38,442 nucleotides of DNA from NCBI GenBank assembly GCA_018971105.1, contig JAGWVB010000008.1, forward strand, positions 1-38,442, in the 5' to 3' direction. This document shows, one piece after another, positions 6,465 to 6,511 of this stretch. Position 1 is the first letter of the stretch; each line of letters starts with the position of its first letter. Source of the stretch: Burkholderiales bacterium. GTDB lineage: Bacteria; Pseudomonadota; Gammaproteobacteria; Burkholderiales; Burkholderiaceae_C. The notes under the pieces are model-generated. The model searched no databases, was not told the DNA's origin, and was given only the letters and a program-made list of their open reading frames with translations. The position numbers and the translations under genes were made by a program.

Positions 6465-6511
6465 CTACCTATTCGGTGGTAATCCCAGCTAGGAATTGGC
6501 GGCGACCGCGC
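6465..6511 (+). promoter_or_regulatory. Conserved promoter block of TMADH copy 1: CTACC-N6-GTGGTAAT...AATTGGCG plus GG-N10-GC element
   Basis: 27/37 positions identical with 21337-21373 upstream of the second TMADH paralog; contains TACCTATTCGGTGGTA (TACC-N8-GGTA) and TTGG-N10-GC, a possible weak sigma54 -24/-12. Confidence 0.5.

Follow-up and report, generated by a model that had tools for sequence, protein, structure and literature searches.

The window, i.e., the whole stretch of 38,442 nucleotides that was analysed, carries two TMADH genes located about 15 kb apart. The first of these lies head-to-head with a divergent dmm-like unit, and the genes for a two-component system are found at the beginning of the window. 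TMADH requires no oxygen. The following genes are relevant here:

255-956 (-): NarL-clade response regulator, predicted operator ligand
1015-2748 (-): HisKA_3 sensor kinase, NarX/NarQ-like in its C-terminal half only
2621-4486 (+): PAS-GGDEF gene, divergent from the kinase gene and its conserved neighbour in relatives
4515-5177 (-): DmmA-like gene, dimethylamine monooxygenase subunit
5212-6333 (-): aminomethyltransferase (GCV_T) gene heading the divergent dmm-like unit, start codon taken from relatives (MxRNSILN)
6575-8767 (+): TMADH1 gene
21532-23727 (+): TMADH2 gene, 75% identical to TMADH1
36392-37261 (+): Gcw_chp (PF09694) gene, predicted regulon member

The window also contains a DUF1329/MMPL/DUF1302/YCF48-like gene set (12787-19554, +) between the ETF genes and a TMAO-permease-like gene. 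In a Ferrovum MAG, DUF1329/DUF1302 genes adjoin the regulator gene, and a weak operator-like site lies between them (G005:C41:2251).

A first-pass annotation of the window had described a 37-bp promoter block shared by the two TMADH genes. Recomputation reproduced the ungapped match of 6465-6501 with 21337-21373 (27 of 37 positions identical), and the three conserved sub-blocks are present as described. No other ungapped 37-mer pair from the two intergenic regions matches better. Among 2000 first-order Markov simulations of these regions, 27/37 was reached once; the match alone is thus suggestive, and the content of the block is decisive. Weak similarity extends beyond the block: where the -10 is predicted, each copy has an AGTTG-like sequence at equal spacing. 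Outside the operator and -35 positions, the surroundings upstream of TMADH1 and TMADH2 are not conserved.

Architecture and rarity of the element

The 37-bp block combines a predicted operator with a core promoter: it opens with the 16-bp inverted repeat TACC-N8-GGTA and closes with AATTGGCG. Of the three sub-blocks, the first two correspond to the left and right operator arms and the third to the -35 hexamer plus flanking bases. The operator shares its 7-2-7 geometry with the sites bound by E. coli NarL, inverted TACYYMT heptamers with two bases between them (PMC4549865, PMC4886647), and a -10-like hexamer follows 17 bp beyond the -35. The predicted promoter features are:

6364-6370 (-): -10-like GAACAAT of the divergent promoter, 17-18 bp spacer
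6388-6393 (-): -35 hexamer TTGTTC of the divergent promoter
6408-6423 (-): operator of the divergent promoter, TACCCCTTAGGGAGTA, nearest of the window sites to the NarL consensus
6466-6481 (+): predicted operator 1 of the TMADH1 promoter, 7-2-7 inverted repeat TACCTATTCGGTGGTA
6481-6496 (+): weaker second repeat of the TMADH1 promoter, 6/8 pairs at centre +22.5, one base off the relatives' consensus
6496-6501 (+): -35 hexamer TTGGCG of the TMADH1 promoter, at the (A)ATTG found at +29 from the repeat in 37/41 non-redundant upstreams
6519-6524 (+): -10-like hexamer CAGAGT of the TMADH1 promoter, 17-bp spacer, in the GAnAAT register of relatives, weak match
21338-21353 (+): predicted operator 1 of the TMADH2 promoter, TACCCCACAAGTGGTA
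21353-21368 (+): weaker second repeat of the TMADH2 promoter, 5/8 pairs at centre +22.5
21368-21373 (+): -35 hexamer TTGGCG of the TMADH2 promoter
21391-21396 (+): -10-like hexamer GACAGT of the TMADH2 promoter
36291-36323 (+): candidate fourth element with one mismatch, TAGCTCCTTCGGAGTA with CCCTAGGG as second repeat and CATTG, upstream of the Gcw_chp gene

When the window is compared with the NarL consensus TACYYMT-N2-AKRRGTA, the three closest sites are both TMADH operators and the one at 6408-6423, each with 1-2 mismatches. The latter is identical at 13 of 16 positions to the engineered E. coli narG -89 site, TACCCCTAAAGGGGTA, which was used in NarL EMSA (PMC4549865, PMC4886647). The interior of the two TMADH repeats departs from the consensus of relatives, with a matrix score of 11.7 versus ~15-25 in most relatives. 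In combination with the weak -10 hexamers, this divergence fits activator dependence, but it could instead reflect low activity. The predicted TMADH2 leader is unusually long at ~130 nt (21403-21532), and an upstream in-frame ATG at 21421 would extend TMADH2 by 37 residues.

The element is rare in the genome. TACC-N8-GGTA occurs six times in 4.82 Mb, including the two TMADH blocks of the window. The remaining four sites (on contigs C172, C345, C381, and C480) appear to be chance sites, as they have matrix scores <12, lack ATTG at +29, and have no reference genes nearby. The composite TACY-N8-RGTA-N13-ATTG has exactly three perfect matches genome-wide, all of them in the window: 6466-6498 (+) at TMADH1, 21338-21370 (+) at TMADH2, and 6391-6423 (-) at the divergent aminomethyltransferase/DmmA genes. 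When up to one mismatch is allowed, the window contains four composites versus 0.04 expected.

Two of these copies, at 6391-6423 (-) just upstream of the first block and at 36291-36323 (+), had been missed in the first-pass annotation. Together with the perfect composite at 6391-6423 (-), the first block forms a divergent control region of two head-to-head halves. The block is indeed shared by the TMADH pair, but it is not TMADH-specific, being also located before the divergent aminomethyltransferase/dmm genes and probably before the Gcw_chp gene. A FolB gene is found at 35510-36121 (-); the element at 36291 faces the opposite way.

The element in other methylotroph genomes

A total of 79 TMADH loci were fetched from one-per-species genomes. 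A strong 7-2-7 palindrome with the consensus TACYACC-WW-GGTRGTA is present in ~44 of them and mostly precedes the TMADH start by 95-120 bp. This count is partly circular because the palindrome matrix was trained on these TMADH upstreams. The ATTG offset and the -10 lay outside this training. When 41 non-redundant upstreams, both window copies included, are aligned on the palindrome, 37 carry ATTG at exactly +29, and the same 37 have a GAnAAT -10 after a 17-bp spacer. This register places the centre of the strong palindrome near -57.5. The full composite, defined by a matrix score >11 plus ATTG at +29, lies upstream of TMADH in 41 of the 79 loci, which belong to Alpha-, Beta-, and Gammaproteobacteria, and its spacing is nearly always identical. 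The check proposed in the first pass, a search for the block upstream of orthologous TMADH genes, therefore leaves the proposal standing. What had been described as a "shared regulator and/or core promoter" is, as supported by the comparative evidence, both in one element.

A weaker palindrome lies 14 bp downstream, near -43.5, with 3.2/8 pairs versus 1.9 in shuffled sequences (300 shuffles, maximum 2.5). In both TMADH promoters of the window, its best centre is located one base later than in relatives. Palindromes in exact 14-bp tandem register are found at L015:908-984 and in the L017 upstream region. The tandem palindromes at some TMADH upstreams suggest cooperative arrays of the regulator.

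In relatives, sites precede not only TMADH but also GCV_T/dmm, a TMAO-permease-like gene, and folE2. The GCV_T promoters of relatives often have AATTT at the -35 and not AATTG. In the Methylophilaceae genome MTYP (3.2 Mb), all six strict palindromes are located within 42 kb around the TMADH cluster. A like concentration is seen in Methylophilus methylotrophus, Methylovorus mays, Methylophaga aminisulfidivorans, and Hyphomicrobium zavarzinii, while the Ferrovum MAG is less clean. The gene folE2, encoding a GTP cyclohydrolase (PF02649 in L126), lies downstream of an operator copy in three methylotroph genomes (L126:13915-14919, G003, and G004). This operator position ties folate synthesis to the methylamine regulon.

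Scans that were not seeded with TMADH were performed with the composite patterns over 200 same-family and 369 class genomes. Near-consensus hits preceded the following genes: in L200, a TMA-monooxygenase-like gene next to GCV_T; in L229 and L230, DAO-type oxidase genes; in L231, folD next to a TMAO-permease-like gene; and in L207, TMADH. The gene names in L200 and L230 as well as folD in L231 derive from reading the N-terminal sequence. The class-wide scan, with few methylotrophs in its sample, gave five hits, of which three precede DAO or folD/permease genes; the other two are unexplained. In the sole other TMADH genome among the 200 same-family genomes sampled (G095), TACTACCCGGTCGGTACTACTTGAGGGGAATTG is located upstream of TMADH.

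The occurrence of the element follows that of the regulator. All five genomes with hits at methylamine genes encode a close NarL homologue (54-63% identity), compared with <=44% in the nine other hit genomes that were checked. In a comparison of 48 TMADH genomes, 22 of the 32 that encode a close NarL homologue carry the composite before TMADH, as against 0 of the 16 that lack one (Fisher p = 4e-6, the genomes not being phylogenetically independent). In the ten genomes that have the regulator without the composite before TMADH, several carry the element elsewhere in the locus.

The candidate regulator and competing explanations

The regulator has a receiver domain and a LuxR/GerE-type HTH (Pfam Response_reg and GerE). 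It passes the NCBIfam NarL model with 256.6 bits (cut-off 250), and its best PDB match is E. coli NarL (E 8e-56). A 37-row clade (support 99/96) unites it with E. coli NarL to the exclusion of other NarL-like regulators. Its recognition helix, TVKVHxKxxLxK, is that of NarL (TVKVHIKNLLRK compared with TVKVHVKHMLKK). The next-best homologue in the same genome shares 40% identity and has a different helix. The set of regulator, kinase, and PAS/GGDEF genes is found in or beside the methylamine clusters of six relatives, which suggests that the PAS-GGDEF protein acts in the same signalling path.

One alternative is that the operators are nitrate-responsive, with a conventional NarXL system coupling oxygen-independent TMADH to nitrate respiration. 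The NarL-clade regulator with its NarL helix, the 7-2-7 sites, and the origin of some carriers from denitrifying settings speak for this explanation, as does the oxygen-free reaction of TMADH. However, no PilJ/NIT nitrate-sensor (NIT/P-box) domain was found in the kinase by Pfam; the NarX/NarQ models align with it from ~residue 309 onward, with scores under the cut-off. Furthermore, no NarG above the cut-off is encoded in the 98%-complete genome, and close NarL homologues are linked to methylamine genes across many genomes. These observations indicate a NarL-clade protein but not a canonical nitrate NarXL system, and nitrate control is considered unlikely.

Slightly less probable still is that another protein binds the block, with the NarL-type genes as mere neighbours. 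Candidates would be a GntR- or AraC-type regulator, or the GAF/sigma-54-type activator encoded in the window (33787-35469, +), whose gene is the end of an mgs-like gene set. Such binders have precedent, as the TMA regulators of Ruegeria pomeroyi are TmaR, of AraC type, and TmoR, of GntR type (PMC13390433). A GntR-type operator was also the first impression from TGGTAATACC, and it was dropped because the repeat of relatives is conserved as TACYNCC-WW-GGNRGTA in 7-2-7 geometry and a NarL-type gene is present in the clusters. Among the window ORFs scanned with Pfam, no AraC- or GntR-type regulator was detected; the contig ends just past the regulator gene. Control by sigma-54 was rejected, since no -24/-12 element (TGGCAC-N5-TTGC, 4-6 bp spacing) matches in the window, and the activator was not detected in the clusters of relatives that were searched. 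The repeat has NarL geometry and sequence, and its presence tracks that of the NarL homologue across genomes.

That the block is a functionless remnant of a TMADH duplication including the promoter is very improbable: paralogues of 75% identity may share ancestry in their upstream regions, but conservation is confined to the operator and -35 positions, and the element also precedes TMADH genes in other classes as well as the divergent dmm-like unit, which is unrelated to TMADH.

Proposed mechanism and significance

The preferred explanation, to which we assign a probability of about 0.85, is that the cluster-encoded NarL-type regulator binds the block and drives a methylated-amine regulon from it. 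The kinase (1015-2748, -) would phosphorylate the regulator (255-956, -), a dimer of which would bind the 16-bp 7-2-7 repeat, centred near -57.5 if the predicted -10, and with it the start site, is correct. A second dimer would probably occupy the weaker downstream repeat, at a distance of 14-15 bp and near -43. From these operators, the regulator would recruit sigma-70 RNA polymerase, for which the promoter itself is poor (-35 TTGGCG, 17-bp spacer, weak -10), and would act as an activator, not a repressor. With a common operator-promoter, both TMADH genes and the divergent aminomethyltransferase/dmm genes would be turned on by a single signal, and probably so would the Gcw_chp gene.

The proposed system resembles E. 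coli NarX-NarL in its NarL-clade regulator, the recognition helix motif, and the inverted heptamers two bases apart. In contrast to E. coli, the kinase lacks a nitrate-sensor domain, the predicted regulon comprises methylated-amine catabolism, and the genome has no narG. The layout, with a strong site near -57.5 and a weaker one near -43, also differs from those of the nitrate genes. Like TmaR and TmoR, the proposed system would control TMA, dmm, and gmaS/mgs genes from within their cluster; those regulators, however, belong to unrelated families and are one-component proteins of the tmm/tdm monooxygenase pathway, whereas a two-component system and TMADH are involved here. In the searchable open-licence literature, we found no regulator for TMADH, and searches on NarL-type control of methylamine use and on LuxR-type regulators in methylotrophs gave no account of this system.

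TMADH represents the classic oxygen-independent route of trimethylamine use, for which a candidate regulator, an exact predicted site, and a small, testable regulon can now be named. The predicted regulon is common to the culturable model methylotrophs Methylophilus, Methylovorus, Methylophaga, and Hyphomicrobium. On balance, we lean towards a NarXL-family branch with a different sensor that serves as a widespread, dedicated TMADH master switch in Alpha-, Beta-, and Gammaproteobacteria, includes folate genes for the demethylated carbon, and may sense a methylated amine, formaldehyde, or a related signal at the membrane. This suggests that a nitrate-type regulator has shifted to a carbon- and nitrogen-source role, with its sensor exchanged. 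The composite element provides a DNA signature for methylamine regulons in metagenomes.
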